From positions 1 through 53,820 of the forward strand of contig JAHYJK010000007.1 of NCBI GenBank assembly GCA_019429225.1: a stretch of 53,820 nt of DNA. The letters are read 5' to 3'. Below the pieces are notes generated by a model that saw only the letters and a program-made list of their open reading frames with translations, ran no database searches and was not told the origin of the DNA. The stretch is from Anaerolineaceae bacterium (GTDB taxonomy: Bacteria > Chloroflexota > Anaerolineae > Anaerolineales > Anaerolineaceae). Positions 5,596 through 35,119 of this stretch are shown in pieces (the stretch's first letter is position 1; each line of letters opens with the position of its first letter). The position numbers and the translations under genes were made by a program.

Positions 5596-6831
5596 TTACT
5601 CATGTCTTAATGCGACAATTGGATCCAATTTCGCTGCCTTATTGGCAGGTAAGTAACCAAACAGGATACCAACAGCAGCAGCCGAACCAAAAGCTAATAC
5701 AATCGAAAATGGGTCAACAACCGTGGGCATATCTCCAAATTTGGAGAATACCCACGAACCAGTAATGCCAAAAATAACACCAATTAATCCACCAACCAGG
5801 GAAAGGATCAGCGCTTCTGTCAAGAATTGACTTTGAATGTCCTGTGGTGTTGCACCCACTGCCTGACGAATGCCAATCTCCCGTGTTCGTTCGGTTACAC
5901 TTACCAACATAATATTCATAATCCCGATACCACCTACTATCAAGGAGACACCAGCTACCCAGGCCAATAAAATTCGGAAAGATTCAGTTGTTGCCGATTG
6001 AGTCTGGATAATATCCTGCTGGGTACTGATCTGGAAATCCGGTGATTCCAATGGCACATCATGCAATTTGGATAACAATAAATTGATCTGCAGGATGACC
6101 GCATCAATATTTTCCTTGTCGTCCACCGTCACATAAATCATCCGCACCCGATCACCTGCAATCCGGGAAAATTGAGAGTTCATTAACTTATCGAAAACCA
6201 GCGTGATGGGAACGTAAACTCTGGCATCATAATCTACCCCGGAAACCAGGCCTTTTTCTTCAAAGACACCTACCACTGTTAATTTGAGTGTTCCAACACT
6301 GATTTTCTGACCTATGGGATATGTGTCGCCAAATAATTCTTTAGCGATAGTTGCTCCTAAAATGGCCGTTCTGGTACTGCGTTCTAACTCCTGATCATTT
6401 AAAAAACGACCTTCTTTTAATTCAATTTCACGTACTTTTGTAAAGTCTGGTGTGGTTCCTAAAATGGATACATCTTCAAGGACAATATTCCCATATTTGA
6501 TGGTTTGCGTGGTATTTTGTTCCACGGCCACCCCGGCGACATGCGGCACACTGTTCGCAATGGCATCCGCATCGGAGTACACCAGGCCCCCTGTAGAAGC
6601 CCCCATTCCTCCCCCTGCGCCACCCTGACTGAAGCTGCTCATCACAAACACCAGGTTGGCTCCCAGACTATTGATCTGGTCAGCGATAGCCGTTTCTGTT
6701 CCAGAACTGACGGCAATCATAATAATCACTGCTGCCACACCAATGATGATCCCTAACATTGTCAGCATGGAACGCAGCTTATTCGAAGTAAGAGATTTCG
6801 AAGCTACCTTAATGACATCTATGATCTTCAT
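5596..6831 (-). CDS. macB: MacB/FtsX-type ABC transporter permease
   Basis: 411 residues: N-terminal transmembrane helix (LTMLGIIIGVAAVIIMIAV, about 22-40), a periplasmic MacB_PCD domain (about 45-280), and a C-terminal FtsX domain with three helices (about 290-405) including the conserved 'GIMNIMLVSVTERTREIGIR' region (IMNIMLVSVTERTREIG). This is the membrane part of a mechanotransmission-type exporter, with the ATPase and membrane-fusion protein encoded just upstream (6 bp and 4-bp overlap). Substrates in the family include macrolides, peptides and lipoproteins; none can be assigned here. The symbol refers to the permease half only. Confidence 0.92.
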   Translation of the reverse strand: MKIIDVIKVASKSLTSNKLRSMLTMLGIIIGVAAVIIMIAVSSGTETAIADQINSLGANLVFVMSSFSQGGAGGGMGASTGGLVYSDADAIANSVPHVAGVAVEQNTTQTIKYGNIVLEDVSILGTTPDFTKVREIELKEGRFLNDQELERSTRTAILGATIAKELFGDTYPIGQKISVGTLKLTVVGVFEEKGLVSGVDYDARVYVPITLVFDKLMNSQFSRIAGDRVRMIYVTVDDKENIDAVILQINLLLSKLHDVPLESPDFQISTQQDIIQTQSATTESFRILLAWVAGVSLIVGGIGIMNIMLVSVTERTREIGIRQAVGATPQDIQSQFLTEALILSLVGGLIGVIFGITGSWVFSKFGDMPTVVDPFSIVLAFGSAAAVGILFGYLPANKAAKLDPIVALRHE

Positions 6832-6837
6832 TTTCTC

Positions 6838-7545
6838 TCACTCTCTCCCATTTTCATGATCCAGTTCAACCAGACCATCTCGTACTGCAATGATCCGTTG
6901 GGTTTGTTCAGCGATATCTGGTTCATGGGTTACCATTACAATTGTTCTTCCTGATTGATGTAAATTGTGCAAAATTTCCATAATTTCATTAGCAGATTTC
7001 GTATCAAGATTTCCTGTTGGTTCATCCGCCAGAACCAGTACCGGATCGTTAATGAGTGCACGGGCAATCGCCACGCGCTGTTGCTGTCCACCCGAAAGCT
7101 CTTTAGGCTGATGATGCATTCGGTCACCCAGGCCTACAATGCCCAACAATTCTTCTGCCTTTTTTGTCATTTCTACCTGATTTCCGGCAGCCGCTTTGTT
7201 GTACATCATTGGTAAAGTCACATTTTCCACTGCACTCATTCTGGGCAATAAATTGTAAGATTGAAAGATAAATCCCAGTTTTTCATTGCGAATATGGGCT
7301 AATTGTGCCCGATTCAACTTACTGACGTCCTGGTCATCGAGGTAGTATTGGCCATCGGTTGGCGAGTCTAAGCATCCCAGGATATTCATCAAGGTACTCT
7401 TACCGGAACCGGAAGGACCCATGATCGCTACAAACTCACCTTCCTGGATGGTAATGGAAACACCATTCAAAGCCGGGACTTCGATCTCACCCATTTGGTA
7501 AATCTTTTTCAGTTGATCTGTCCTGATAATCACAGAATCTGTCAT
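6838..7545 (-). CDS. MacB/LolD-type ABC transporter ATPase
   Basis: 235 residues with Walker [10 protein letters not shown] (43-51), Q-loop, signature [15 protein letters not shown], Walker [14 protein letters not shown] and H-loop VTHEP. The short length and 'DEPTGNLD' are typical of the LolD/MacB/FtsE group. It energises the permease at 5596-6831. Its start overlaps the stop of the membrane-fusion gene by 4 bp (translational coupling). Confidence 0.95.
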
Positions 7546-10437: not shown

Positions 10438-12972
10438 TCAGCGCTGGTAAATCACAAAATCACCGTACTCAAACACCCGCTGCAAGTGCTGATCAAATTT
10501 AGATTGCTGCACACCCCCATACCATTCACGTTCCAATGGGCTGAAAACGACATAAGTTATGTTGTACTGATCGAGTAATTGTTCTGTGATGGCCCAATCC
10601 CGTTCCGTATATATCAGGCGAATATCATTTTCACGCGTCGCTACGGAAACAAAATCATTTCCGCGCCACTGCGCTTCATGATTGACCCAACCCATCACAG
10701 TTGGAAGGCCAGTCATCATTGAAACTCTCGAGGATCGTCCCTCTACCCAATATGCACCCTTTGTTCCTTCCAACACCACCGCTGATTTCTCGACATTTGT
10801 TTTGAACCATTGAATCAACGCCCAATCATCCGGATGATACAATGAATAGAAAGCCAGCCCATCCAGCGTTGGCTGCCGCATTCCGCCGGTTTCGACAGAA
10901 TTGCGTATGCCAGCTGTCGTGGATTGGATCGTCCCGATGGTGTAAACGATCCCGGTCAAAAACCCTACTACCATAAACACCAAGGCAATCACTCTTCCCC
11001 ATCCCTGCACCCGTTTCAGTAAATACCAGAATCCAAAACTGGCACTGATCGCCCATAAAATCCAGATCTGGAAATAAAACTTGAACAGCGTATTCATGCG
11101 CCAACCAAAATTATCACGCAGGTAGACAAACTCCGGTCCCAATAACAGCAAAGTGCCGGTGATAACCAATGCAAAAACAAACAGAGTGCTTTCCGATCCT
11201 TGTTTTCGCAGTCCCCACAAAATGGCAATGCTTCCAGCCATCAGCAATAAACCCAGCAGGAGTGTGCCACCTTCCACCACCCGCCTGATCAACAACCAAC
11301 CTAACGCTTCATTGATCGTAAATGGAGAAATAGCGCTATTCACAAGATTAGCGGTTTCAGGATTGGACAACATCAAAATGACCAGCAAAGTAGTAACGAG
11401 AATCATCATTACCAGAAATCCGCCAGTGATTTTCCAGCCTGTTTTGAAATCCACTTCTTTCTTAAATCTTCGGACGACAACCAGCATCAGGCAAACCACA
11501 CCGATCAACAGTGGTCCAAACATGACAAACAATTGGCGAAATTTGGTTGGGTAAATAACATTGGGAATGATGCCACCCGCCTGGGTTTGAAGTGTTAGCA
11601 GGAAAGGCAAATACAACAACACACTGATCAGCACAACCCAGCCCATTGGACGCAGGAACATGATCAGGCTTTTCCAATCCCAGCCTTCTTCGCGCTGGTA
11701 GAAATAAGCCAGACTTCCACTCAACAGGAACAGAAATACATAAAAGGGGAAATCCCAGGTATTCAAGAAGATCAAACTTCCCAGAATGATGGCTGAAATA
11801 CCAATTCGCTGCCAGGTAATCGAAACAGTAAAATCCTCCTCTTTTCTGAATCGCAAGTCCAGTAACCACTCAAAACTCATCAGGATCACCAGCAACACAA
11901 AGGGCAATCCCAGAACATGTGGATGTAAATCTGCCAGTAAAAACGAAAATGCAGGAAACTCATCGATCGCCTCGGGATCATAACCCATCAGATTACGGTC
12001 ATGGATGGTGCGTGATGCAAAAAACCAGTTTCCCTGTTGAATGCCTTGAAAGGACACATCCCGTGCTGGAATAGGACCTAATTGTTTCAGATCCATCCAT
12101 TCCCAAAAGTTGATTCTTCCGGAAACAACCTGCGGCGCGATCTCTGTCTGGGTCTCAGAATTGATGCTACCCGTCTGAAACCAGATCGCTGGCACCTTTG
12201 CTTCCGCAAATACATGGTGCATATGTAAAACATCCAGAATGCCGTAAAAATTCCCCACCACCAGAAGTACTATCGGGGCAATTAAGGAAACAGGCACCCA
12301 ACGCAGCATGTCTGATTTCCCTTCCGCTTTGGGGCCACCCATTCTGGCAATCAGGTTCAACAAAACACCGAATGCAGCTGTGAAGGTTAAGGCAAATATC
12401 AAGGCAATTGCCAGATTGAAGGCAACACCGGCAGGCGTAGATGTGAGCATGCTGATGAATGCCACCATCACATAACCAAAATAATAATAACTGATACTGT
12501 AGCCTGCCAACCAGGCATCCTGTGGTGGAAATGTAGGGCTTCGTAAAATAGAATTGATAAACATCAACTCCATGGGTTTTTCGGTGCCAAAAATGTCCGG
12601 GTTATAAGAGCGCAACCAAGCCATCCCCATGAATGCCAGTAGAAACACAACCTCAACAACCAGAACCAACCCTAGATTCTGCGTGATCCATTTCCATATA
12701 CTGGTAAAGCCATGTTGATGGATCGACCACAAACCAAATACAGCCAGAATTAAAATGGCTGCCCAGATACCACCCGAAGTGTTTTGAGACATGCCCAAAC
12801 TGTTCAAAAACCAGTGGATGAAACCAGCCAGCAATAATCCCATAATTTTGGACACCGTTAATCCCCGATCGGGGATTCGACGGAAAAAATTAAATGTCAG
12901 TGGAAAAACAAGCCATCCAATTAAGACAATAAAAAAATACCAGGAGAGAAAATATGTCAGGTCAGATTTCAT
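10438..12972 (-). CDS. YYY-motif multispanning membrane protein (DUF2298, Chlor_Arch_YYY)
   Basis: 844 residues from ATG 12972, with about 15 or more transmembrane helices and the hallmark triple tyrosine in 'YSISYYYFGYVMVAFISML' (about 160-180). This domain is known mainly from Chloroflexota and archaea. The fold is glycosyltransferase-C-like, with many helices and a soluble C-terminal end (about 720-844, 'LIQWFKTNVEKSAVVLEGTKG' and 'YTERDWAITEQLLDQYNITY', quoted in part: AITEQLLDQYNITYVVF), similar to the terminal domain of such transferases. A role in transferring sugars from lipid carriers is inference. A GTG 33 bases upstream is possible, but TATAAT sits exactly 6 nt before ATG 12972, suggesting a leaderless message. 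Confidence 0.88.
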   Translation of the reverse strand: MKSDLTYFLSWYFFIVLIGWLVFPLTFNFFRRIPDRGLTVSKIMGLLLAGFIHWFLNSLGMSQNTSGGIWAAILILAVFGLWSIHQHGFTSIWKWITQNLGLVLVVEVVFLLAFMGMAWLRSYNPDIFGTEKPMELMFINSILRSPTFPPQDAWLAGYSISYYYFGYVMVAFISMLTSTPAGVAFNLAIALIFALTFTAAFGVLLNLIARMGGPKAEGKSDMLRWVPVSLIAPIVLLVVGNFYGILDVLHMHHVFAEAKVPAIWFQTGSINSETQTEIAPQVVSGRINFWEWMDLKQLGPIPARDVSFQGIQQGNWFFASRTIHDRNLMGYDPEAIDEFPAFSFLLADLHPHVLGLPFVLLVILMSFEWLLDLRFRKEEDFTVSITWQRIGISAIILGSLIFLNTWDFPFYVFLFLLSGSLAYFYQREEGWDWKSLIMFLRPMGWVVLISVLLYLPFLLTLQTQAGGIIPNVIYPTKFRQLFVMFGPLLIGVVCLMLVVVRRFKKEVDFKTGWKITGGFLVMMILVTTLLVILMLSNPETANLVNSAISPFTINEALGWLLIRRVVEGGTLLLGLLLMAGSIAILWGLRKQGSESTLFVFALVITGTLLLLGPEFVYLRDNFGWRMNTLFKFYFQIWILWAISASFGFWYLLKRVQGWGRVIALVFMVVGFLTGIVYTIGTIQSTTAGIRNSVETGGMRQPTLDGLAFYSLYHPDDWALIQWFKTNVEKSAVVLEGTKGAYWVEGRSSRVSMMTGLPTVMGWVNHEAQWRGNDFVSVATRENDIRLIYTERDWAITEQLLDQYNITYVVFSPLEREWYGGVQQSKFDQHLQRVFEYGDFVIYQR

Positions 12973-12978
12973 AGTGGT

Positions 12979-12984
12979 ATTATA
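12979..12984 (-). promoter_or_regulatory. -10 element 6 nt from ATG (leaderless promoter candidate)
   Basis: Minus strand TATAAT-ACCACT-ATG. Transcription would begin at or next to the A of ATG 12972. No Shine-Dalgarno sequence is present. The -35 region is weak. Confidence 0.6.
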
Positions 12985-13166
12985 GTGAAAATTTCTAAAA
13001 TTCACAGGCTTTACAGCGTGCTTTACTTATAATGTTAATCTATAATAAACAAAATAATTTATTAATTTGCATTTTCTATTATCATTTTTATCATTCGGAC
13101 ATCACAGCGCGATACCACACATCAATAAAACCATCCAAATTTTAGTAGCAATTTTTGAGGTTTATT

Positions 13167-22168: not shown

Positions 22169-22188
22169 TTGTCAAAATTTATTGACAA
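22169..22188. promoter_or_regulatory. Inverted repeat overlapping the -35 of the hydrogenase promoter
   Basis: TTGTCAA-N6-TTGACAA, perfect 7-bp arms; the right arm contains the whole -35 hexamer. A protein bound here would block RNA polymerase. Confidence 0.5.
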
Positions 22189-22210: not shown

Positions 22211-22346
22211 CATACACATAGTATATCCATACTGTTTTGTTCCCAAATTTTAATATTTCCCCATTAAAGTCTCATCGCTGTAAAAATCCTTTTGATTAGC
22301 AAAAGTATATTTGCATTTAATTTCACCCAAAAAGAGAGGATCAATT

Positions 22347-23489
22347 ATGCTGCGTTTAGGAGAGAGTGTTCAGGAATTTTTAGCAAGGGAAGGAATGTCC
22401 CGGCGTGATTTCTTGAAGTTTTGCAGTGTGATGGCAGGTGCCCTGGCGCTGCCCCACAAGGAAGCTTTTGCAATTGCAAAAGCATTGGAATCACCAAAAC
22501 GTCTTCCCGTCGTATGGCTTGAGCTGCAGGATTGTGCAGGTTGTAGCGAAGCCTTCTTACGGTCATCCAGCCCGACTGCCGCTGAGTTGGTATTGGATGT
22601 CCTGTCCGTGGATTACCATGAAACCATCATGGCTCCTTCAGGCTTTCAGGCAGAGAAATCAAAAGAGGACGCCATCGCTGCCGGAGGTTATGTGTTGGTG
22701 GTAGAAGGCTCTATTTCAACAGCAGGAGTCGGTGAATACTGTTGTGTTGCCGGCAAATCGTCCCGTTACATTCTGGAAGAAGCAGCCAAAAACGCGGTTG
22801 CCGTGATTGCCGTCGGGAATTGTGCTACCTTCGGCGGCGTACCGGCTGCCAATCCCAATCCAACAGGCGCTGTAGGTGTCTGGAATATCATCAAAGATAA
22901 GCCAGTGGTCAATATCCCGGGTTGTCCTATGAATCCTGCAAACCTGACCGCCACAGTCGTCCACTTCCTCACCTATGGAAGCTTACCCGCTATGGATCAA
23001 CTTAATCGCCCATTATTTGCCTTTGGTCGCAGAATTCATGATAATTGCGAACGACGTGGCCACTTTGATGCTGGCGAATTCGTGATGGAATGGGGCGATG
23101 ATGGCCATCGCGCTGGTTGGTGTCTGTATAAAATGGGATGTAAAGGACCTACCTCATATCATAACTGCCCAACCATCCGATTTAATGATGGGGTCAACTG
23201 GCCTATTGGTGCAGGCCATCCATGCATTGGCTGTTCTGAACCAGGTTTCTGGGACTGGGAAGTATACAAACCAGTTACCCTCAATGCGATCACACCTCCT
23301 ACCACTTATCCATCTGTGGAAAAACCTGTCCGGGAAATATCCCCTGCCAGTATTGCTATAAGCGGTACGGCTGTTGGTGCCATCGCTGGTGCTGCCGGCG
23401 CTTTTGCTTATTCATCCCTCACCCAACGTTCAAAACATACAAAACCCGTTGTTGAGGAAATTGAATCAGAAGAATCCGCAGAGCATTAA
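22347..23489 (+). CDS. hybO: [NiFe] hydrogenase small subunit, Tat-exported
   Basis: 380 residues from ATG 22347 (AGAGGA 6 nt upstream). Tat signal with twin arginine in SRRDFLKF (about 18-25). The small-subunit core begins with 'VWLELQDCAGCSEAFLRS' (proximal cluster CxxC), continues with 'GNCATFGG' and 'NIPGCPMNP', and the C-terminal cluster cysteines lie in 'HDNCERRGHF', 'WCLYKMGCKGPTSYHNCP' and 'HPCIGCSEPGFWD'. A C-terminal transmembrane helix (about 335-360) anchors it to the membrane. It passes electrons from the nickel site to the HybA/HybB modules encoded next. Order small-HybA-HybB-large-protease matches E. coli hybOABCD, so the symbol is by analogy. Confidence 0.93.
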   Translation: MLRLGESVQEFLAREGMSRRDFLKFCSVMAGALALPHKEAFAIAKALESPKRLPVVWLELQDCAGCSEAFLRSSSPTAAELVLDVLSVDYHETIMAPSGFQAEKSKEDAIAAGGYVLVVEGSISTAGVGEYCCVAGKSSRYILEEAAKNAVAVIAVGNCATFGGVPAANPNPTGAVGVWNIIKDKPVVNIPGCPMNPANLTATVVHFLTYGSLPAMDQLNRPLFAFGRRIHDNCERRGHFDAGEFVMEWGDDGHRAGWCLYKMGCKGPTSYHNCPTIRFNDGVNWPIGAGHPCIGCSEPGFWDWEVYKPVTLNAITPPTTYPSVEKPVREISPASIAISGTAVGAIAGAAGAFAYSSLTQRSKHTKPVVEEIESEESAEH

Positions 23490-23503: not shown

Positions 23504-24364
23504 ATGGAAGTAAATCGAAGAGATTTTCTTAAAATCGCAGGTGCAGGGATTGGTACCCTCGTTCTCCCCTCGCTTGATGTAAAAGCAGCAGCCATACCGG
23601 GCAATCTTGAGAATGCACACGCAATGTTATATGATGCGACTCTGTGCGTTGGCTGCCGTGCCTGTCAGGTTGCTTGTAAGAAACGAGCTGGACTACCTTA
23701 TGTCATGGATGAAAATCAGATGTACGAAATGCCCACTGATTTGAATGGTGACACCTGGACTTTAATTAAACTTTACCAGGATACCGAAACATATTCCTAT
23801 GTGAAGAAACAATGCATGCATTGTGTTGAGCCAGCCTGTGCATCCGTATGCCCGGTGGCAGCGCTGGAAAAAACATCGGAAGGCCCGGTTGTATATCACA
23901 GCTATAAATGTATTGGATGCCGCTATTGCATGACAGCCTGCCCGTTTGATGTACCGAAATATGAATGGGATGAAGTAAATCCAATCATTCAAAAATGTGA
24001 TTTCTGTGCCGATCTACAGGCTGCTGGACAACAACCAGCCTGTAGTGCTGCCTGCCCCACCGGTGCATTAATCTCTGGTACGCGTGCTGAAATGCTCGCA
24101 ATTGCGCATCAACGTCTGGCTGATCATCCCGAACAATACTATAACCATGTTTATGGGGAGCACGAAGTCGGTGGTACTTCCATGTTGTATATTGCCGGTG
24201 TTTCATATGAAAAACTCGGTTATCCAACCTTGAAAGATCAACCCATCCCTGATATTACCTGGCCGTACATGAAAGCAGTCCCATTTGTCTTTTTTGGTAT
24301 GGCTGGGGCAATGTCCGCTATTTACTATTGGACTCACCGTAACAAAGAAGAAGAGGAGGGGTAA
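23504..24364 (+). CDS. hybA: HybA-like 4x[4Fe-4S] ferredoxin subunit
   Basis: 286 residues. Tat signal NRRDFLKIAG at the N-terminus. Four cysteine groups typical of DmsB/HybA electron-transfer subunits: 'CVGCRACQVACKK' (about 47-59), 'CMHCVEPACASVCP', 'CIGCRYCMTACPF' and 'CDFCADLQAAGQQPACSAACP'. A C-terminal transmembrane helix (about 258-276) as in HybA. It carries electrons from the small subunit to the NrfD-like quinone-reactive subunit. It starts 14 bp after the small-subunit gene, and the next gene starts 1 bp after its stop. Confidence 0.93.
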   Translation: MEVNRRDFLKIAGAGIGTLVLPSLDVKAAAIPGNLENAHAMLYDATLCVGCRACQVACKKRAGLPYVMDENQMYEMPTDLNGDTWTLIKLYQDTETYSYVKKQCMHCVEPACASVCPVAALEKTSEGPVVYHSYKCIGCRYCMTACPFDVPKYEWDEVNPIIQKCDFCADLQAAGQQPACSAACPTGALISGTRAEMLAIAHQRLADHPEQYYNHVYGEHEVGGTSMLYIAGVSYEKLGYPTLKDQPIPDITWPYMKAVPFVFFGMAGAMSAIYYWTHRNKEEEEG

Positions 24365-24365
24365 T

Positions 24366-25526
24366 ATGGCTACCGGGGTTAATAATATTCGCTTGAGAAA
24401 ATATCCTGTTGGCGCAGGAATGATCATCGTCTGGATCGCAGGTGCCATCGGATTAAGCGTGGCAGTCTATCGCTGGATCGTTGGGTTGAGAATCACCAAC
24501 ATGAGTGATAATCGGCCCTGGGGTATCTGGATCAGTTTTGATATGATGAGTGGGATTGGCCTGGCAGCTGGGGCATTCAGCATAGCTGCTATTGTTTATA
24601 TCTTCAACATAAAAAAACTATATCCGATCGTGCGTCCAACCATACTGACTGGCTTTATCAGTTATATTCTGGCTGCCCTCACTTTGCTGGCCGACCTGGG
24701 TTTACCACAAAACATCTGGCATTTGATTATCTATTGGAACATACACTCCCCTCTCTTTGAAATCGGTTGGTGTGTGATGGCATATACCACAGTATTATTG
24801 CTGGAATTCAGCCCGGTTGTTTTGGAAGCATTGGGATGGAAAGCGCCGCTCAAACTAATTCGCAGCATCACCATACCCCTGGTCATTTTGGGTATTTCAC
24901 TTTCCACGATGCACCAATCCACGTTGGGCACCATGTTGTTAGCCATGCCCTACCGGATTCATCCATTCTGGTATTCTCCATTGATGCCAGTATATTTTTT
25001 CATGACTGCTATCGCTGCAGGCATGGCAATGACCGTTTTTGAAAGTTACCATTCTGCCCGAACATATCAGCAGAAATTCAAGATTGGAATTGCATCCAGA
25101 ATCACCAGTTGGATCCCATACGTTTTGGGTCTTTACCTGGTCATCAAAGTAGTGGATGTCATTGTCTCTGGCACATATATCTACCTTATCCAAGATCCCT
25201 GGCCAACCTTCATGTTCCTGATCGAGATTATGGGAGGTGCATTAATTCCGGCCTTGATGTTTGCTGATAAACGGGTTCGGAGTAATCTTAGTGGTCTGGT
25301 TTGGGCTTCATTCCTCGTCATGGGTGGTCTGATCCTGAACCGCTTTAACTCCACTCTGGTTTTTATGAATGGAGATTTCTATTTTCCCAGTGCCGCTGAG
25401 ATCGCGGTCTCTATCGGCCTGACCTGTCTGGGTATCATCTTGTTTGATGCAGCTATCCGCTTCTTACCGATGTACCCAAACCCACGTGAAAAACAAGCAA
25501 TTAAATCTTTAGAGAACGCCGTATAA
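24366..25526 (+). CDS. hybB: HybB/NrfD-like integral membrane subunit
   Basis: 386 residues from ATG 24366 (GGAGGGG 5 nt upstream, inside the end of hybA). About ten transmembrane helices with the NrfD/PsrC layout, including 'RPWGIWISFDMMSGIGLAAG' near 47 and 'STMHQSTLGTMLLA' near 180. This subunit exchanges electrons with menaquinone and, in Hyd-2-type enzymes, couples this to proton movement. It is the membrane partner of HybA. Confidence 0.93.
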   Translation: MATGVNNIRLRKYPVGAGMIIVWIAGAIGLSVAVYRWIVGLRITNMSDNRPWGIWISFDMMSGIGLAAGAFSIAAIVYIFNIKKLYPIVRPTILTGFISYILAALTLLADLGLPQNIWHLIIYWNIHSPLFEIGWCVMAYTTVLLLEFSPVVLEALGWKAPLKLIRSITIPLVILGISLSTMHQSTLGTMLLAMPYRIHPFWYSPLMPVYFFMTAIAAGMAMTVFESYHSARTYQQKFKIGIASRITSWIPYVLGLYLVIKVVDVIVSGTYIYLIQDPWPTFMFLIEIMGGALIPALMFADKRVRSNLSGLVWASFLVMGGLILNRFNSTLVFMNGDFYFPSAAEIAVSIGLTCLGIILFDAAIRFLPMYPNPREKQAIKSLENAV

Positions 25527-25539
25527 AAAAGGAGTCTAA

Positions 25540-27261
25540 ATGATGGCAAAAGTCGTAATTGATCCAATCACTCGAATCGAAGGACATTTAAGAATTGAAG
25601 TTGAAGTAAAAGATGGTGTGGTGACAAATGCCTGGAGCAGCAGTACCATGTTCCGTGGCATTGAGACAATTTTAAAAGGACGTGATCCACGGGGTGCCTG
25701 GACGATAACCCAACGTATCTGCGGTGTTTGAACGACTGTACACGCAGTCAGCTCCGTGCGAGCTGTAGAAGATGCTTTGAAAATCAAAGTCCCCACCAAT
25801 GCCCGACTGATTCGAAATATTATTCAAGCCATTCAATTTGTACAGGATCATGTGATTCATTTCTATCACTTACATGCCCTCGATTGGGTGGATATTGTCA
25901 ATGCCCTCAGCGCTGATCCAAAAGCGACCTCCGAACTGGCAGAATCGATCTCCACCTGGCCTAATTCCAGTGAAAATTATTTCCGTGGTGTTCAGGAACG
26001 GGTGAAAAAATTTGTTGATTCCGGTCAACTGGGTATTTTTGCCAATGCTTATTGGGGACACCCGGCGTACAGTTTACCGCCTGAAGCCAATTTGATGGCA
26101 GTCGCTCACTATCTGGAAGCCCTGGATTGGCAGCGAGAAGTCATCAAAGCCCATGCCATTCTAGGCGCTAAGAATCCCCATCTGCAGACCTATCTTGTTG
26201 GCGGTATGTCAACTCCTGTTGATCCCAACAGCGAAGTTGCCATTAATGCGGATAAAATCGCGCAGTTACTGGGATTATTCGCCAAAGCCAAAGATTTTGT
26301 GGACAGGGTCTATCTGCCGGATGTGCTGGCAATCGCTCCCTTCTATCTGGATTGGGCTGGATTGGGCGAAGGTCTGGGTAATTTCATGTCCTATGGTGAC
26401 ATTCCCTTGATCGATGACTTCGACCCCAATAATCCGGAACATCTCTTTTTCCCACGCGGTGTCATTCTCAATCGCGATCTCAGCAAAGTGCACCCACTCG
26501 ATCCTGAAAAGATTCATGAATATGTCACTCACTCCTGGTATTCCTATGAGGACGAGAGCAAGGGCATGCATCCTTCTGTTGGTGAAACCAATCCCAATTA
26601 CACCGGTCCTAATCCTCCCTATGAATATCTGGATACGGACAAAAAGTATACCTGGTTGAAGGCACCCCGCTATGATGACAATTCCATGGAAGTGGGTCCC
26701 TTAGCGCGTATGTTAATTGGATATGCCTCAGGACATAAACGCACCGTTGAGTTGGTGAACGCAGTGCTCGAAAAACTCAATGCGCCTGCAAGTGTTTTAT
26801 TCTCCACTTTAGGCCGTGTAGCCGCCCGCTGTGTGGAAACGGTCCTGTTGGCAGAACAGCTAGAACCCTGGACCATGGAACTGGCTCAAAACATCGGCAA
26901 AGGCGACTTACGCATTCATGAACAGGATCACTGGGAACCTTCCACCTGGCCAGCTGAATCCATGGGTTGGGGTTGGACGGAAGCTCCCCGAGGCGCTCTG
27001 GGTCACTGGATACACATCAAGGACGGCAGAATTGCCAATTATCAGGCCATCGTACCCTCCACCTGGAATGGCTCACCGCGTGACGCTAAAGGACTGATGG
27101 GTGCGTATGAAGCGGCATTGATCGGTACACCGGTAGCAGATCCCAGCAAACCGGTGGAGATTTTGCGAACCGTCCACTCCTTTGACCCCTGCATGGCGTG
27201 CGCGGTGCATGTCCTGGATGCGGAAGGGAATGAAATAACCAAAGTGATTGTGATGGATTAG
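25540..27261 (+). CDS. hybC: [NiFe(Se)] hydrogenase large subunit with in-frame TGA (putative Sec64)
   Basis: Read through TGA at 25729-25731, the frame is continuous for 573 residues, normal for the family. The N-terminal nickel motif reads R59-I-C-G-V-[TGA64]-T-T-V-H68, so TGA stands where the second Cys of RxCGxCxxxH is always found. The C-terminal motif is ordinary: DPC551-M-A-C554-A-V-H557, followed by a 16-residue tail removed by the protease encoded next. No other frame damage is visible, and every neighbour is intact. A SECIS-like hairpin follows the TGA (separate entry). In classical [NiFeSe] enzymes Sec replaces the first Cys of the C-terminal motif, not this bridging position. Alternatives: nonsense mutation or sequencing error. 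Automated gene callers would split this gene, starting the rest at 25756. AAAGGAG precedes the start. Confidence 0.88.
25732..25765 (+). promoter_or_regulatory. SECIS-like stem-loops directly after the TGA
   Basis: A perfect 6-bp stem CAGCTC/GAGCTG (25749-25754 with 25760-25765) closes a 5-nt loop CGTGC whose second base is G, with 23 nt from TGA to the loop. As I recall the bacterial SECIS consensus, an apical-loop G in the first two positions and roughly 16-37 nt from UGA are required, and both hold. A second 5-bp stem GACTG/CAGTC (25734-25749) lies between TGA and this hairpin, sharing one base with it. Confidence 0.55.
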
Positions 27262-27264
27262 CCA

Positions 27265-27735
27265 TTGAAAAAAACACTCATTCTGGGCGTTGGTAATTAC
27301 ATACTCTCTGATGACGGACTCTCTGTCCATGTTCTGGAGCGCTTGCAGGCAGATAACCTCATTCCAGACGAAATTCAAATGATTGATGGCGGCACATGCG
27401 GCCTTGACCTCCTCCAATATCTGGAGGGGGTCTCTAATCTGATCATTATTGACGCCATCAAAACCAGAGATGGCATTCCCGGTTCGATCGTTCGTCTGGA
27501 TAGGGATCAGATTCCTGCTTATCTATCGTTAAAAATATCACCCCATGATATTGGTCTGCCTGATCTTTTAGCCACTGCCAAACTTCGTGATCTCTATCCG
27601 GAGAAAATAGTGATCTTTGGTATTCAGCCAGCTTCCCTTGAATTAGGCGTTGAACTTTCCCCGGAAGTCGCTTCGAAGGTGGATGCATTAATTGAATTAA
27701 TCCAAAAAGAGGTCAATGAATTGATCCTGATTTAA
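27265..27735 (+). CDS. hybD: Hydrogenase maturation protease (HybD/HyaD family)
   Basis: 156 residues, starting with TTG 27265, 3 nt after the large-subunit stop, so probably translationally coupled. It opens with the family fold 'LILGVGNYILSDDGLSVHVL'; the usual nickel-sensing Glu is Asp here (SDDG), as in part of the family, with a second Asp in 'IIDAIKTRDG' and a His in 'SPHDIGLPDLL'. It should clip the 16-residue tail after His557 of the large subunit once nickel is inserted. HypABCDEF are not in the window. Confidence 0.92.
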   Translation: MKKTLILGVGNYILSDDGLSVHVLERLQADNLIPDEIQMIDGGTCGLDLLQYLEGVSNLIIIDAIKTRDGIPGSIVRLDRDQIPAYLSLKISPHDIGLPDLLATAKLRDLYPEKIVIFGIQPASLELGVELSPEVASKVDALIELIQKEVNELILI

Positions 27736-27840: not shown

Positions 27841-29052
27841 ATGTCAACATCTGAGCAAACATCGCCCCTGACAAAACCCAAACATTACAACTTAGAAATA
27901 CTGCTATTTTCCTCCATCCGCATCCTCGTTCATGCCATGATGCGCATGGTGTATCCTTTTCTGGCTGTGTTTGGTCGCGGTCTGGGGGTTGACCTCACCA
28001 CCATTTCATTAGCTGTTACCATTCGCAATTTCGCAGCCATCCTGGTGCCTTTTATCACCTCAATCTTTGATAAACGCAGTCGTCGCAGCGGCATGTTAAC
28101 CGGTATGGGGCTCTTCATTCTTGGATGCGCTGTTGTCACTTTTTTCCCAACGTTCATCGTTTTTATCCTGGCACTGAGTTTGACTTTCATCGGTATGCAT
28201 GTTTTTGTTGCCTCCATGCAGGCATACCAGAGTGACACCATCCCCCTGTCCATCAGAGGACAGGCAATTGTTATCACCAGCACAGGCTGGGCGTTAAGCT
28301 TTGTGGTGGCAGTACCCCTGATAGGATTTCTGATTGGTCGTTTTGGCTGGCTATCTCCTTTCCCGGTGATGGGTGTTTTAGGGGTGATTTCGATATTTTT
28401 CCTTTTATGGCTGGTTCCTCCTGGGAAAAAAGCCATCACCGACCAGGCTGAAAAAGTTCAACATGGTATTTTGCAGGTTTTTACATCCAAAACCGCTATT
28501 GCTGGCGTGCTGATGATTTTATTCTTTTGTGCTGCCCATGAAATCGTCAATCTTGTTTTTGGTGTCTGGATGGAGGATAAATATGGACTCTCAATCAATG
28601 CCCTGGGTGTGGCATCCACCGTCATTGGTTTGGCGGAATTGTTGTCGGTGGCAGCCGTCAGCTGGTTATTGGCTCGCTTAGGGGCAAAGCGTGCAGTGGC
28701 GATTGGGCTGGTATTCAGCTCACTCACAGCCATTGCCATTCCATGGCTGGGCAGTTTTGGCTTATGGGGTGCTGAATTAGGTCTCTTTCTGTTCAACCTG
28801 GCTTTTCAAATACCCTTTATAGCCTATGCTCCCCTCCTCACAGAGGTACTTCCATTTGCACGGGCATCCTTATTAGGTGCCACTCTTGCCTCGGTAGGCG
28901 TTGGGCGTATGCTGGGTGCTCTGGCAGCACCTTATTTATTTGTATGGGGATTTCAATTCAATGCCTTAGCAGCCATGATCTTGTTTTTGATTTCTCTGTT
29001 TACCCTCAGCAAAGTCAAAACCCACCAGGAACAGGTTGTATTAATCACCTAA
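27841..29052 (+). CDS. MFS transporter
   Basis: 403 residues, twelve transmembrane helices in two sets of six with a cytoplasmic loop near 195-210 ('PPGKKAITDQAEKVQ'). The short basic loop between helices 2 and 3 ('SIFDKRSRRSGMLTG') is the MFS signature region. Substrate not assignable. It has its own promoter and follows the hydrogenase terminator, so it is not part of that operon. Probably translated from a leaderless message. Confidence 0.88.
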   Translation: MSTSEQTSPLTKPKHYNLEILLFSSIRILVHAMMRMVYPFLAVFGRGLGVDLTTISLAVTIRNFAAILVPFITSIFDKRSRRSGMLTGMGLFILGCAVVTFFPTFIVFILALSLTFIGMHVFVASMQAYQSDTIPLSIRGQAIVITSTGWALSFVVAVPLIGFLIGRFGWLSPFPVMGVLGVISIFFLLWLVPPGKKAITDQAEKVQHGILQVFTSKTAIAGVLMILFFCAAHEIVNLVFGVWMEDKYGLSINALGVASTVIGLAELLSVAAVSWLLARLGAKRAVAIGLVFSSLTAIAIPWLGSFGLWGAELGLFLFNLAFQIPFIAYAPLLTEVLPFARASLLGATLASVGVGRMLGALAAPYLFVWGFQFNALAAMILFLISLFTLSKVKTHQEQVVLIT

Positions 29053-29779: not shown

Positions 29780-32700
29780 ATGAGCTCGTTAATCCCACGA
29801 CTGCGACAATTGCCACGGTTTTATGGGCTTCTTCCCCTGTTATTGGTTCTGGCGGTAATCTTATTACTGCAGGGATATTCTGTATTTTCTCAACCCATAA
29901 ACAACCTGATTCCTTTGAACCATAATCTCAGCCCTTTTCCTCCATCTGAGGTTTTCTTTCCCAAATCCGATTATCCTGCGTTTTCAATCGGTAATACCAA
30001 TGGTTCCGATCTCGTACCTGCAATTGATTTTAGCGGAGCTAATTATCTGGTGGTTTGGGATTATCAACTCTCTGGAACCACAACCCAATATGGCATACTT
30101 GGCCGAATGATCAATCCAGGCGGTTCGCCATCTTCTGATTTGTTTGGGATCAGTCTGGCGACAGATTTCGCACGTCTGTCGCCGGATGTGTCATACAACC
30201 CTGCTGGCTTAGCAGAATATCTGGTGGTCTGGCAACAACTATCGGGTTCTGAATCGAATATCCGTGCCCGACGTGTGCGTCAGGATGCAGTTCTTAGTGG
30301 ACCTGAAATTGCGGTTGCTGTCAGTGGCCAATTCGAAAGTAATCCTTCAGTAGCCAGTAACCCCAACACAGCCCAATGGTTAGTAGTTTATGAATATGAC
30401 AACGGTGCTAATAAGGATATTCGAGCACAGCGTATTGGAACAGAGGGTGAATTGCTAGACGAGGCGTTGACAATCGCCAGTGGAACATCTGATCAGACAC
30501 ATCCAGATGTAGCTTTCATGCCAGAAGTTGGGCAGTTCCTCATTGTTTGGGAGGAACATCCAGATCGCAGCCACTATTACGTGTATGGGCAGCGACTTTC
30601 ACAGTATGGGGAATTTCAAGGTGGCCCGTTTGTGATTGCTGGTAATGAATACCCTAACCGCTACCCAAGCCTTGCAGTCAACACCCAATCCAATGAATAT
30701 TTGATCGCCTGGTCTTTCCGTACATCACCAGTCGACTCTTATGATGAAATTCTCGTTCAGCGTGTCAATACCTCTGGCACATTGATAGCCAGCCCACAAT
30801 CTATCTCTGCTGGCCGGCAGGTGGTTCACCTGAATCCAGCAATCAGCTACAACTCCTATGTAAATGAGTATATGGTTGTCTGGCAGGAGCAGTATTCTAC
30901 CAGTGATCACGATCTGTACCGCCGGCGTGTGAAGGCTGATCTCAGTCTGCCCGAGCTGCCCCAAATAATCAGCAATTCAGGCTTTTGGGAAGGCGCACCT
31001 GCCCTGGCAACTGACCGTGATCTAAATTATTTTGTTGTCTGGCAAGATGAGCGAGATTTCACCACCCAGGCTGAGAACATCTACGGGCGTCTAATAACCC
31101 TGGACCAACTAAGCGGTCAGGTTTTTCATGGAGAGATTGGAAACACTTCTACCCCGCTTACAGGCGTAACCCTGCGGTTGTACGCATCCAACAACGCCTT
31201 GGATATAGGGACTGTAGTGGGGGCATCCACCAGTGATGTTTCTGGATGGTATAGCTTAATTGCTCCATCAGGATGGGAATATTACACCATTCTGGAAAAC
31301 GATCCTCCTGGCTACCAGTCCAGTGGGGCAACCAGCATAGGCGGGATCGTTGTCAATTTTAACCAAATCCAGTACAGCTATCCACTGGGGGGCAAGGTGC
31401 AACATGCTAACAATTTTTTTGATATTCCCCTTACGGCTTTATCCTCAACCCCAACTCAAACTTCTACCATTACTTCTACCCAGACCCAGACCCACACCAC
31501 CACAGTCACACAAACCTCAACCAAATCACCGACACCCACCACCACTCAAACTCCTTCCCGCACGCCAACAGTCACACGAACCAGGACGCCAACACCTACA
31601 ACACATCCCATCACCTGGATAAAATTTGACAACTTGGCCAGCAGTACGTATGTTGAGGAGCAGTTTGTCAGCCAGGGTGTGCATTTTATCAGTGACTACC
31701 TGCCAGGGTACAATTTTGTTGCAGGACCGATTATTACCACCCACCCAAATGCCAAATCTTCACCCCATGTATTGTTGAACGATTTTTCAGGTGGTGAATT
31801 TTTCAATAGTGCCAATAAACCGCTGGTGTTCTGGTTTACAGAACCGGTTTCTGGAGTAGGCATGCAACTCCTGACCAAGAGCCATAATGGTGAAACCTGC
31901 AATGGTACTTATACCGCGACTGTTAAAGTGTTTGACTGTAATGGCAATCTGATCGAAACCCGCACGGTAGCGGTCAATCGTTTCACCCCGACACCATTAG
32001 AGATTGATGATCCCCAGGGGAATATCAAAAGGGTGTGGATCGACTACGGTTCAACCCCCTGTCCGGAAGTCATCGATGATCTGGCTTTTATGAAAGGAAG
32101 CAACTACTGTGTACATTATTTTTACCCGAAAGTTACCATTGAATATCCTCCCAGCGGGAGTATCCTTACCACTCCTCAAATAATGGTAAATGGAACGATA
32201 GAAGACAGGAGTGTGTTGCATTCCTATAAGATTAATGGTGTGAAATTACCAATCTATATGAGCGATCCAATTGGAATTTACAAGTTTTCTGTCCCGGTTA
32301 CCTTAAAACCAGGTGCTAATGTTTTCTCTGTCCAGATTTACAACGGATCTTTGTGGGAATCACAAACAATCACCTACCAGTTAGGCGCACCCAGTTTAGC
32401 CAACCTGGCAGAGTTCCACCTCACCCAACGTGGCGTGATCAAAAGCAGTAGTTGTGATATCGACACACCTTTGATCGCCAGGAAATCAGGACTGGTGAGC
32501 ATCAAGCTTAATGTGACCACTGCCAGTGGTGCGCCTGCTATCATCAATTCGATAGACATGAAGATATACAAGACATCAATAACAGGTGATGTTTTGATCA
32601 ACACCATAGCAGGAGACTCTTACCCAACCAGTATGGGAAGTTTTATGTCCGCTGATCAGATGGAGGAGATCCTCTTCTGGTTTTCAGCAGAGGATGTCAG

Positions 32701-35119
32701 CGAAGCAGGCCTATACAGATTTGCTTTCCAGCCATATGTTGGAGCGTTTCCATTTGGTCCTGAACTGGAAATAAGCTGTGGTGACGGTCAATACCATTTC
32801 TTCTCGTTAACCCAACCCCTCAATTTGTTGCTTCTTCCAGTAGAAGCAGGAATGTACTCATCTGTCCTGGCAAATACCACACATACCCAGGACCTGATGT
32901 TACAGATCTTGACTGCCGTGCGTACCTTGCCAGTCTCTGATAACATTTACCCAAATTTTGGTATCAAATTTAAGGAAATTAGCCCCTTTAAGATGTGTGA
33001 TGGCAATTCTGCCAGTAATATTTTGTATCCCAATATCTGTTTGGGGACTGGCTGGGAGTGGGATCTGATTGATAAACACCCTTCTGGACTACTGTTGCGT
33101 GCAGATGCCGATTATGTGTTTGATTATTCCCGCACCTTTTGTGAGAATAAAGATGAACCTGATAAAAAAGATTATATCGTTGGTGGCGTAATAAACAGTT
33201 CCTCCATGATTCCTTACAACTTTAACCCAGACTTGGGCATATTTCGACCAGGTGCACACCCAGGCTGGGCACATATCGGTGGCCAACCCGATAAGCATTC
33301 CTGGCCAATTGATGAGAATCACAACTACATTTTGGATGATTATGAGCTGAGACTTTATATCAAATCTTTTTATGACACAGACCAGAAAAAATGGCTGGAA
33401 TTTCCCAATGACGAATATGACATGGGCGAGACCATCCGCTTCTTCTTTGACACCAACGATAATGACTGTAACAACACCAAGGAAGATACACAGGCACCTA
33501 TTGTGCATAAGTTTGGTCGATTTGATTTTATGAAACCACCGGAAGAAGCTTTTTTCCAACAAAACGCTGCCATTTTTGGTACGGCAAACGATTTTACGAA
33601 TGCAATCCTGGTGTTTCCTGATTCTTTCATCGCCAGCGATTACAGGTATGGCGACATTGATGGAGGACAAGGCCAGAATAATGGCAATTTAGTTTGGATG
33701 CGCGTTAATCCTGATTCAGTTCTCAGTCACGAGCTGGGTCATAATATTGCAGGCCTGGCAGACCAATATTTTGACGACATTAAAGATGATTTATTTACCA
33801 AGGAAAATGCGTTAGCTGTATTTATCAACCGGGAAAAGATACCACCTGATCAAGTGTATATCTCCATGGGTTTTGTACATGCTTACAATCGAGTTGTCCA
33901 TTACTTGCCGGAATACAAGAAATTGTATGACAAGCTAAAAATAGCAGGATATTCTCAGTCTACATTGACTAAAGAGCAAGATGCTCCAGTCTTCCTAATT
34001 AGCGGGTTGGTACAGGCTGATGGTAGCATTTCTAATCTAAACTACCAGCAGGTAATAGGCCTGGAGACCTCCCCGACAGACTCTCAAAGTGACTATGTAC
34101 TGCGCTTTGGGAGCGGGACTATAACTCTGCTGGATTATCCATTCCCGGTTGGAGAGACTGCTCCTCCCCCCGAAGGTTACAACAGCTGGCCTCTTCAGGC
34201 ACAACCTTTTTCGGTCGTTGCACCCTACCCAAATGGGACAGACTGGGTAGAGCTCCACCACGATGGTCAGACGCTGGTTCACTTACAGCCCTCCGCACAT
34301 GCCCCCCTGGTCCAGGTGCAGTCGCCCAACGGGGGAGAGATTTTTGATAATGATGGCGAAGTGCTCATCCAGTGGACTTCTTTTGATACGGATGACGACC
34401 CCTTGCTGCATAATATTTATTTTTCACCAAATGGGGGTGAGACATGGAACATTGTGGCAGCCAATATCGGCAGCCATTATTTCCCCTGGTCACTGGCCAA
34501 TGTGCCCGGTACCGATCAGGGTTTGATCCGGGTCGATGCTATGGATGGCTTTAACAGCACATCCGATACCAGTGCCACACCTTTCACCGTCAAGGATAAA
34601 CCACCTAGGGCTGTAATTTTGGCACCTAAAATTGGTCAGGAAATCCTACAATGCGGACTCATCCACCTCAGTGGGGTAGTTTACGATCCTGAAGGATCAG
34701 CGGTTAATGTCACCTGGAAAATCGATAACGAAGCTGTCGGCGATTCTCTGGAAATGAACGTGTCCCCGTTGCGGCCAGGTATGCACCGAATAACTCTGAC
34801 TGCTGAGGATGAAAGCGGGCAGTTTGTGGTTGTTGAGCACGAATTCAGCATTCTGGCTGACATTGATTGCGACAGAATGGAAGACGGATGGGAGCTGGCT
34901 AATCGTCTTAATCCGGCAACCCCATTAGACGCATCCGAAGACAGCGACCAGGATGGGGTGTCTAACCGCGATGAATACTGGTGGGGTCTTGACCCATGGA
35001 ATCCGGATACCGACGGTGACGGGATTCCGGATGGGACCGAGATTGTACAGGGTACCAACCCTCTGGATCCGAATGATCCGATGATTCAAAGAATATACCT
35101 TCCATTGATCAATCGTTGA
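29780..35119 (+). CDS. Giant secreted multidomain protein with zincin-type HExxH motif
   Basis: 1779 residues. N-terminal signal/membrane segment (about 15-38). Residues 55-450 hold six or more repeats of about 60 residues with 'YLVVWQ'-type strands, likely a beta-propeller. Then an SdrD/CarboxypepD-like beta domain, a Thr/Pro-rich linker (about 555-612) and beta-sandwich modules. The central segment has 'SHELGHNIAGLADQY' with H1317, E1318, H1321 and Asp at 1327, fitting the HExxHxxGxxD zinc site of metzincin/M64-like peptidases. Further Ig-like domains follow, then calcium-binding thrombospondin type-3-like repeats ('DSDQDGVSNRDE', 'DTDGDGIPDGTE') near 1710-1760 and the last residues IYLPLINR, a tail often seen on exported Chloroflexota proteins. 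Probably a secreted or surface protease or adhesin. Good ribosome site GGAGGG. Confidence 0.88.
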   Translation: MSSLIPRLRQLPRFYGLLPLLLVLAVILLLQGYSVFSQPINNLIPLNHNLSPFPPSEVFFPKSDYPAFSIGNTNGSDLVPAIDFSGANYLVVWDYQLSGTTTQYGILGRMINPGGSPSSDLFGISLATDFARLSPDVSYNPAGLAEYLVVWQQLSGSESNIRARRVRQDAVLSGPEIAVAVSGQFESNPSVASNPNTAQWLVVYEYDNGANKDIRAQRIGTEGELLDEALTIASGTSDQTHPDVAFMPEVGQFLIVWEEHPDRSHYYVYGQRLSQYGEFQGGPFVIAGNEYPNRYPSLAVNTQSNEYLIAWSFRTSPVDSYDEILVQRVNTSGTLIASPQSISAGRQVVHLNPAISYNSYVNEYMVVWQEQYSTSDHDLYRRRVKADLSLPELPQIISNSGFWEGAPALATDRDLNYFVVWQDERDFTTQAENIYGRLITLDQLSGQVFHGEIGNTSTPLTGVTLRLYASNNALDIGTVVGASTSDVSGWYSLIAPSGWEYYTILENDPPGYQSSGATSIGGIVVNFNQIQYSYPLGGKVQHANNFFDIPLTALSSTPTQTSTITSTQTQTHTTTVTQTSTKSPTPTTTQTPSRTPTVTRTRTPTPTTHPITWIKFDNLASSTYVEEQFVSQGVHFISDYLPGYNFVAGPIITTHPNAKSSPHVLLNDFSGGEFFNSANKPLVFWFTEPVSGVGMQLLTKSHNGETCNGTYTATVKVFDCNGNLIETRTVAVNRFTPTPLEIDDPQGNIKRVWIDYGSTPCPEVIDDLAFMKGSNYCVHYFYPKVTIEYPPSGSILTTPQIMVNGTIEDRSVLHSYKINGVKLPIYMSDPIGIYKFSVPVTLKPGANVFSVQIYNGSLWESQTITYQLGAPSLANLAEFHLTQRGVIKSSSCDIDTPLIARKSGLVSIKLNVTTASGAPAIINSIDMKIYKTSITGDVLINTIAGDSYPTSMGSFMSADQMEEILFWFSAEDVSEAGLYRFAFQPYVGAFPFGPELEISCGDGQYHFFSLTQPLNLLLLPVEAGMYSSVLANTTHTQDLMLQILTAVRTLPVSDNIYPNFGIKFKEISPFKMCDGNSASNILYPNICLGTGWEWDLIDKHPSGLLLRADADYVFDYSRTFCENKDEPDKKDYIVGGVINSSSMIPYNFNPDLGIFRPGAHPGWAHIGGQPDKHSWPIDENHNYILDDYELRLYIKSFYDTDQKKWLEFPNDEYDMGETIRFFFDTNDNDCNNTKEDTQAPIVHKFGRFDFMKPPEEAFFQQNAAIFGTANDFTNAILVFPDSFIASDYRYGDIDGGQGQNNGNLVWMRVNPDSVLSHELGHNIAGLADQYFDDIKDDLFTKENALAVFINREKIPPDQVYISMGFVHAYNRVVHYLPEYKKLYDKLKIAGYSQSTLTKEQDAPVFLISGLVQADGSISNLNYQQVIGLETSPTDSQSDYVLRFGSGTITLLDYPFPVGETAPPPEGYNSWPLQAQPFSVVAPYPNGTDWVELHHDGQTLVHLQPSAHAPLVQVQSPNGGEIFDNDGEVLIQWTSFDTDDDPLLHNIYFSPNGGETWNIVAANIGSHYFPWSLANVPGTDQGLIRVDAMDGFNSTSDTSATPFTVKDKPPRAVILAPKIGQEILQCGLIHLSGVVYDPEGSAVNVTWKIDNEAVGDSLEMNVSPLRPGMHRITLTAEDESGQFVVVEHEFSILADIDCDRMEDGWELANRLNPATPLDASEDSDQDGVSNRDEYWWGLDPWNPDTDGDGIPDGTEIVQGTNPLDPNDPMIQRIYLPLINR

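Follow-up and report, generated by a model that had tools for sequence, protein, structure and literature searches.

A [NiFe] hydrogenase with predicted selenocysteine at the nickel-iron bridging ligand in an Anaerolineaceae bacterium and its relatives in several phyla

Introduction

What does it mean when the gene of a hydrogenase carries a stop codon exactly where a nickel-binding cysteine should be encoded? The gene in question lies in the window, by which we mean the whole 53,820-nucleotide stretch of contig JAHYJK010000007.1 (Anaerolineaceae bacterium, assembly GCA_019429225.1) that was analyzed. A nickel-ligand cysteine is likewise replaced by genetically encoded selenocysteine (Sec) in the classical [NiFeSe] hydrogenases, such as HysAB of Desulfovibrio and Desulfomicrobium and FrhA and MvhA/VhuU of methanogens, however, there Sec stands for the first cysteine of the C-terminal motif, a terminal nickel ligand at the position of Cys546 in Escherichia coli hydrogenase-2 (Hyd-2). 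In the class described here, Sec is predicted at the second N-terminal cysteine, which is bridging, and often at the first as well, whereas the classical C-terminal site is Cys. Interest in [NiFeSe] hydrogenases comes from their H2 production and their recovery from oxygen, and engineered Sec variants are being used to probe the role of each nickel ligand.

The Gene and Its Operon

The large-subunit gene sits in an intact operon with the following features.

22311 to 23489 (+): hydrogenase small subunit, HybO/HydA type with a TAT signal (TIGR00391, 447 bits); likely ATG start at 22347
23504 to 24364 (+): HybA-type iron-sulfur subunit (PRK10882, 273 bits, exceeding the cut-off of 263)
24285 to 25526 (+): HybB/NrfD-type membrane subunit (NF008133, 262 bits, under the cut-off of 450); likely ATG start at 24366
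25540 to 27261 (+): [NiFe] hydrogenase large subunit, HybC/HupL type, 573 residues with TGA read as Sec
25720 to 25722 (+): codon of Cys61, the first N-terminal ligand; TGA in relatives with a UxxU motif
25729 to 25731 (+): in-frame TGA, read as Sec64, in the column of the Ni-Fe bridging cysteine (Cys64 of Hyd-2, Cys79 of Hyd-1) and kept in relatives
27184 to 27210 (+): C-terminal motif DPCMACAVH, residues 549 to 557, with the ligands Cys551 and Cys554 both present
27265 to 27735 (+): HybD-type maturation endopeptidase (TIGR00072, 147.5 bits, exceeding the cut-off)

The 573-codon frame runs from the ATG at 25540 to a TAG at 27259 to 27261, and the TGA, which the first-pass annotation had placed at the second cysteine of RxCGxCxxxH, is indeed its sole internal stop. 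Read through, the protein has RICGV(U)TTVH as its N-terminal nickel motif and, as had been claimed, keeps both cysteines of the C-terminal one, fitting the ligand motifs RxCGxCxxxH and DPCxxCxxH with Sec replacing the second N-terminal Cys. NCBIfam large-subunit models are matched over its length, the homology is full length, and the small subunit and protease genes adjoin. Among solved structures, 3MYR of Allochromatium vinosum ranks first of 51 distinct sequences that match at E 1e-60 or better, followed by Hyd-1 of Salmonella and E. coli. An AlphaFold model (12 sequences, Cys replacing Sec), which was used for fold assignment alone, has a moderate mean pLDDT of 72.1, and its fold match to 3MYR is at 58% identity over the model.

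The gene order small subunit, HybA, HybB, large subunit, protease is that of E. coli hybOABCD, and we take the enzyme to be a group 1 type [NiFe] hydrogenase. Hyb enzymes oxidize H2 outside the membrane and reduce quinone; by analogy, the window enzyme would likely oxidize H2 on that side and pass the electrons to the quinone pool. The small subunit has the standard proximal-cluster motif DCAGC with Gly, as in HybO, in the column of Hyd-1 Cys19 (third place of ECTCC), and is not of the O2-tolerant type with a six-cysteine proximal cluster. The first-pass annotation had described a sound operon with good promoter, protease, and terminator. The intact gene set and the protease stand, but the claims of a promoter and a terminator are weak: the sigma-70-like site at 22182 to 22210 matches 11 of 12 positions, in a region where 11 sites of this kind occur and 10.9 are expected, and the scan, which ended at 27900, listed no terminator-like site beyond the end of the protease gene (27735). 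An Rfam scan of the window gave nothing at gathering scores. Elsewhere, the window holds a 1779-residue open reading frame at 29780 to 35119 (+), in which Pfam finds only a bacterial TSP3 repeat near the end, and an 855-residue DUF2298 membrane protein at 10438 to 13005 (-).

The stop could also separate two cistrons, a 63-residue peptide and a protein restarted past the TGA, and an open reading frame of 501 codons does begin at the first listed start, GTG 25756. This arrangement is very improbable, given that there is no Shine-Dalgarno-like sequence upstream of that GTG and that the restarted product would lack the two N-terminal ligands, whose codons remain in frame in relatives.

The Ligand That Is Replaced

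Pairwise alignment places Sec64, with no gap, on Cys64 of HybC, and the Sec64 column, counted on the alignment to solved structures, is that of Cys79 in Hyd-1. The Cys64 column is that of the N-terminal cysteine bridging Ni and Fe, and the earlier proposal of a bridging Sec is thus supported by both alignments. The nickel ligands of HybC are given as Cys61, Cys64, Cys546, and Cys549 in the accessible part of a study of Hyd-2 (PMC11212049). Outside the ligand columns, no residue difference between Sec and Cys enzymes stood out clearly enough for interpretation.

Conservation of the TGA

In a search of 61 genomes, 51 had some match to the large subunit. The TGA is present at the bridging codon in six species of one genus (the window genome, G000, with G001, G002, G005, G006, and G007), the five congeners keeping it at 86–98% identity. 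G052, a member of the same order at 71% identity, has TGA at both N-terminal Cys ligands (RI-U-GV-U). Seven full-length homologues at 58–59% identity (G003, G020, G024, G029, G033, G042, and G043) have Cys at the bridging column; G003, of the same genus, has only this Cys homologue, and the best match of G004 is distant (E 3.4e-18). Closer pairs also exist, in which a Cys relative and a Sec enzyme share 83 or 86% identity. Past the TGA, dN/dS between the window gene and its congeners was 0.016, 0.030, 0.034, and 0.033 in four of five comparisons, with dS above 2.6 and near saturation in the last two, and in the comparison with L019 dS was saturated. The gene is under strong purifying selection beyond the TGA.

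Named genomes were then scanned with the pattern GRDP...[QE]R.[CU]G.U...H, which fixes nothing downstream of the His codon. At least 118 stretches matched, and every one of the 118 listed is a [NiFe] large subunit with TGA at the bridging column, 66 of them CxxU and 52 UxxU. Four of these loci (L113, L126, L128, and L149) are the same genes as those of the genus members G001, G002, G005, and G006. The C-terminal ligands are Cys in all 95 of the listed loci that reach that motif; the remaining loci were mostly ended by the boundary of the stretch. Among the matches listed, the taxa are Chloroflexota (Anaerolineae), Nitrospirota, Desulfobacterales, other Deltaproteobacteria, one Rokuibacteriota, and five Bacillota (L076, L077, L117, L131, and L148). 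Viral contigs gave no match to the pattern. The window gene is therefore not the single odd gene that it was first read as, it is a member of a widespread class that often has predicted Sec at both N-terminal ligands, and the TGA at the bridging column is kept in four hydrogenase lineages.

These results bear on the alternative that the TGA is a nonsense mutation, or a product of misassembly, in a gene that is decaying or misread. The draft assembly comprises 368 contigs, of which the window is one, and two of the 118 listed genes are interrupted further on (L059, with the C-terminal motif in another frame, and L137, with a stop 220 codons on). Nevertheless, the probability of this explanation is negligible: the same TGA in five congeners, together with the two in G052, is not a matter of chance or assembly error, many other assemblies share it, the frame has no other stop, and the selection past the TGA bears out the first-pass view that the gene is not decaying.

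A Hairpin Downstream of the TGA

Sec insertion in bacteria is directed by a SECIS hairpin directly 3′ of the UGA, and a candidate for such an element is found at that place in the window gene.

25749 to 25765 (+): SECIS-like hairpin CAGCTC-CGTGC-GAGCTG, starting 17 nt past the TGA, examined by synonymous shuffling and covariation

In relatives the stem occurs in four versions (CAGCTC/GAGCTG, CTGCTC/GAGCAG, CGCTTC/GAAGCG, and CGCCTC/GAGGCG), which differ on either side of the loop even at codons where the encoded amino acid is altered. Folding energy barely separates Sec from Cys genes (42 nt past the TGA against synonymous shuffles, median z -1.01 for CxU, -0.36 for UxU, and -0.11 for Cys), so pairs were counted in fixed registers instead. 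The pairing is in excess of that in synonymous shuffles of each gene: stem A is fully paired in 29/42 family A genes and 8/11 genes classed as “other,” the 8-bp B stem in 22/23, and the C stem in 7/9 TGA genes; across 37 Cys homologues the A, B, and C stems are full in 0, 0, and 1, all of these counts including near-copies. Without near-copies, family A has the plain stem in 27/40 and a bulged variant in 9, and the bulged stem is full in 7/10 Nitrospirota loci, although L230 among the ten is the gene of L119. Hairpin families were sorted by motif, with L062, L073, L109, L111, and L123 counted as A or “other”; L062, L073, and L123 nevertheless sit in clade C of the tree described below.

The registers were picked after viewing the folds of the same set and later applied to other loci. 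A full version of one of four stems occurs in 30 of 38 further TGA loci (A 7, bulged 8, B 9, and C 6), and among loci not used in stem definition a full stem occurs in 28/36 with TGA (leaving aside L128 and L149) vs. 1/60 with Cys. The B stem is present in all five TGA genes that similarity searching turned up and in 0/23 Cys relatives. Two Cys relatives, L208 (7 of 8 B pairs) and L198 (6 of 8), resemble decayed hairpins and suggest a reversal from Sec to Cys. The five Bacillota loci and some others do not fully fit these stems.

Covariation was scored on 40 aligned family A sequences, 32 of them distinct, and gave 0.245 vs. 0.123 for shuffled alignments (0/500 shuffles as high), with structures slid along the alignment at 0.007–0.085. 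Both partners vary in four of the six stem pairs, yet the number of additional pair types is lower than in shuffles (6 vs. 7.9). RNAalifold predicted five of the same six pairs at a small energy of -1.31 kcal/mol.

Selenocysteine Machinery and the Proposed Mechanism

The first-pass annotation would have fallen with the absence of Sec genes from the genome, and all four are present. The tRNA-Sec gene selC scores 69.9 bits (ARAGORN anticodon tca) and SelB 342.5 bits, and SelA is split into two contig-end pieces covering model positions 1–266 and 263–454, the second alone being under the cut-off. SelD scores 352.3 bits, and its gene (L227, C208:2809–3744 of G000) is itself a selenoprotein gene with an in-frame TGA of its own at AG-U-ASK. 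The large-subunit gene shows three marks of a bacterial selenoprotein: an in-frame UGA where homologues carry Cys, a SECIS-like hairpin directly 3′ of it, and selA, selB, selC, and selD in the same genome.

Across 36 genomes from among those of 80 of the listed loci, a tRNA-Sec scored above the Rfam cut-off in 32 and at 60 bits or more in 28; we set the 60-bit line because the Rfam cut-off was also passed by 5/14 controls. SelB exceeded its cut-off in six of the eight genomes below 60 bits. G461 shows sub-threshold matches for both, the tRNA at 47.3 bits and a SelB-like protein at 145.5 bits, the genome search of G484 found neither a strong tRNA-Sec nor selB, and in the TGA-bearing congener G006 no strong tRNA-Sec was found while SelB is present. 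In 49 Chloroflexota genomes, a tRNA-Sec at E 1e-10 or better occurred in 9/10 with a TGA hydrogenase, G006 being the exception, and in 30/39 without; tRNA-Sec is thus common in Cys-only genomes and its co-occurrence with the TGA hydrogenase does not discriminate. A second selB (269–281 bits) was observed in G454 (C174:6392–7625) and G479 (C100:12719–14739), where it adjoins a second, weaker tRNA-Sec-like gene of about 55.5 bits, perhaps forming a second Sec-decoding system.

The amino acid at the UGA cannot be read from sequence, and suppressor-like tRNA-Cys molecules are known, so an opal suppressor tRNA that reads UGA as cysteine or another amino acid has to be considered. We find this very unlikely. 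The hairpin past the UGA, missing in the Cys genes, is a hallmark of SelB-directed Sec insertion, the selD of the same genome has its TGA at the usual Sec place (UxxK), and TGA ends 12 of the 30 window open reading frames counted, a set chosen by size and uncurated.

We therefore favor Sec, and put at about 93% the probability that the gene encodes the large subunit of a membrane-bound, H2-oxidizing, quinone-reducing HybOABC-type hydrogenase in which UGA64 is decoded as Sec, by way of the hairpin and SelA, SelB, SelC, and SelD, to give a bridging selenium. Directly readable from the sequence are the TGA and its conservation, the hairpin, the genes of the Sec machinery and, by homology, the ligand column; on these grounds the prediction holds that selenium is encoded at the Ni-Fe bridging cysteine of a hydrogenase in the window bacterium and in many relatives of several phyla. 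From these we infer that Sec is actually inserted and the active site assembled with a bridging selenolate. SelB would deliver Sec at UGA64, directed by the hairpin just 3′ of it, the NiFe(CN)2CO center would be inserted and the protease would cleave, after which Sec64 would bridge Ni and Fe. In UxxU enzymes, Sec61 would be a further terminal ligand, leaving nickel with two Se and two S. A bridging Sec may change redox and oxygen behavior, and the benefit would most likely be an active site that is easier to recover from oxidation, with altered hydride and proton chemistry.

Comparison With Known Hydrogenases

A close known counterpart is E. coli Hyd-2 (HybOABC), which has the same operon order, subunits, fold, and ligand columns, with 282/567 residues identical between the window protein and HybC. 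HybC has Cys at all four ligands, unlike the window protein, and A. vinosum 3MYR, of the same fold and ligand columns, likewise has Cys where the window class has Sec. The window protein is not a HysA: its DPCMACAVH is without Sec at the first C-terminal Cys, and it scores 411.8 bits against the HysA model NF045518 (cut-off 780), the best of five relatives scanned reaching 607.9 (L076). The Bacillota members are HysA-like in sequence (709.6 bits to NF033181 for L076, the only one of L076, L077, L117, and L148 scanned against NCBIfam), yet have Sec at the N-terminal place. All four of these loci combine an N-terminal bridging Sec with Cys at the classical C-terminal Sec place.

Sec was reportedly put at each of the four cysteines of E. 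coli Hyd-1 by Evans in 2021. The accessible part of a review describes reduced activity of Hyd-1 for every placement of Sec, and greater O2 tolerance when Sec occupied the classical site (PMC9961374). The accessible part of the Hyd-2 study describes engineered Sec at each of the four Cys, Cys64 included; all four variants oxidize H2 and are less active in this than the native enzyme, and that part does not mention a natural counterpart at Cys64 (PMC11212049). These Hyd-1 and Hyd-2 variants were made in the laboratory with TAG codons, whereas the window class has a natural TGA. A 2026 inventory of 119 prokaryotic selenoprotein families and subfamilies by Sec position, as far as its text is accessible, gives hydrogenase alpha subunits as UxxC only, FrhA and MvhA/VhuU among them, and describes [NiFeSe] enzymes as confined to sulfate reducers and methanogens (PMC13188914). 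Sec in the N-terminal motif is likewise absent from the accessible parts of ten further articles, which mostly do not state the Sec position (PMC6258894, PMC1914089, PMC1794560, PMC9751293, PMC5736913, PMC8318568, PMC2702500, PMC5109826, PMC4730141, PMC1242214). In the open-access literature, to the extent of the text accessible, no natural hydrogenase is described with Sec in the N-terminal motif, and a description elsewhere is possible. Sec-containing [NiFe] hydrogenases are known as such, and what appears to be new is Sec at this ligand position in natural enzymes.

The class would be nature's own version of the ligand experiment, with Sec placed at the bridging ligand and, in many members, at the two N-terminal ligands together, and the close Sec/Cys pairs (83–86% identity) and a cultured carrier offer tests that are already at hand. 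Pipelines that treat UGA as a stop would annotate these genes as truncated, and H2 uptake in subsurface and sediment bacteria may thus be under-counted.

Distribution and Evolution

Three phyla were searched by similarity in evenly drawn sets of genomes. Chloroflexota had a match at E 1e-120 or better in 45/400 genomes, with TGA in 4/52 matches (at the bridging column in G000 and G247, column unconfirmed in G070 and G440). In the phylum of G457, a Desulfobacteraceae genome, 137/297 genomes had a match; TGA is confirmed at the bridging column in G457, G558, G718, G696, G569, and G621, and among the matches listed also occurs in G708, G579, G608, G756, and G728, column unconfirmed. In the phylum of G484 (Nitrospira-titled), 75/198 genomes had a match; 40/77 matches contain one or two TGA, and the ten loci examined among them are all UxxU with C-terminal Cys. 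On plasmids, 139 records matched, all below 60% identity and with ligand codons unread.

A quick LG+G4 tree was built from 126 sequences (50 CxxC, 42 CxxU, and 34 UxxU), leaving out near-duplicates, rows shorter than 450 residues, L113, L126, L197, and L128–L165; the program warned of long branches (L195, L196, and L223). Sampling was uneven, with Sec rows mostly from the pattern and Cys rows chosen by similarity to P0001 or L056. The TGA genes fall in four groups: A (Chloroflexota/Nitrospirota), B (Desulfobacterales), C (HybC-like, from Desulfobacterota and Nitrospirota), and D (HysA-like, from Bacillota). The bridging state changes at least 13 times, nine of them forced by well-supported branches, compared with a shuffled mean of 39.6. 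Relatives have switched repeatedly between Sec and Cys, and the tree does not give the direction (gain vs. loss).

The cultured carrier is Syntrophomonas zehnderi OL-4 (L131), with a 477-codon gene at 5805 to 7235 (+) that is otherwise open. Its large subunit, of the HysA type, has Sec at the bridging place of the N-terminal motif, and the C-terminal DPCLACAIH keeps Cys; a 7-bp hairpin (GCCAGCG/CGCTGGC) follows the TGA, and the tRNA-Sec of the genome scores 74.4 bits. Judging from the genes, it is very probable that these enzymes are a large, overlooked natural class with selenium as a bridging ligand, 52 of the 118 listed having it at both N-terminal ligands ([NiFeSe2]), which spans four phyla and four lineages, three of these lineages with an identified SECIS stem, switches repeatedly between Sec and Cys, is functional, selected, and distinct from the terminal selenolate type, and is made by S. 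zehnderi.

Finally, G070, G891, and G965 each have TGA and TGA-free large subunits (TGA columns unconfirmed), gene pairs that recall the selenium-dependent and selenium-free pairs of methanogens.
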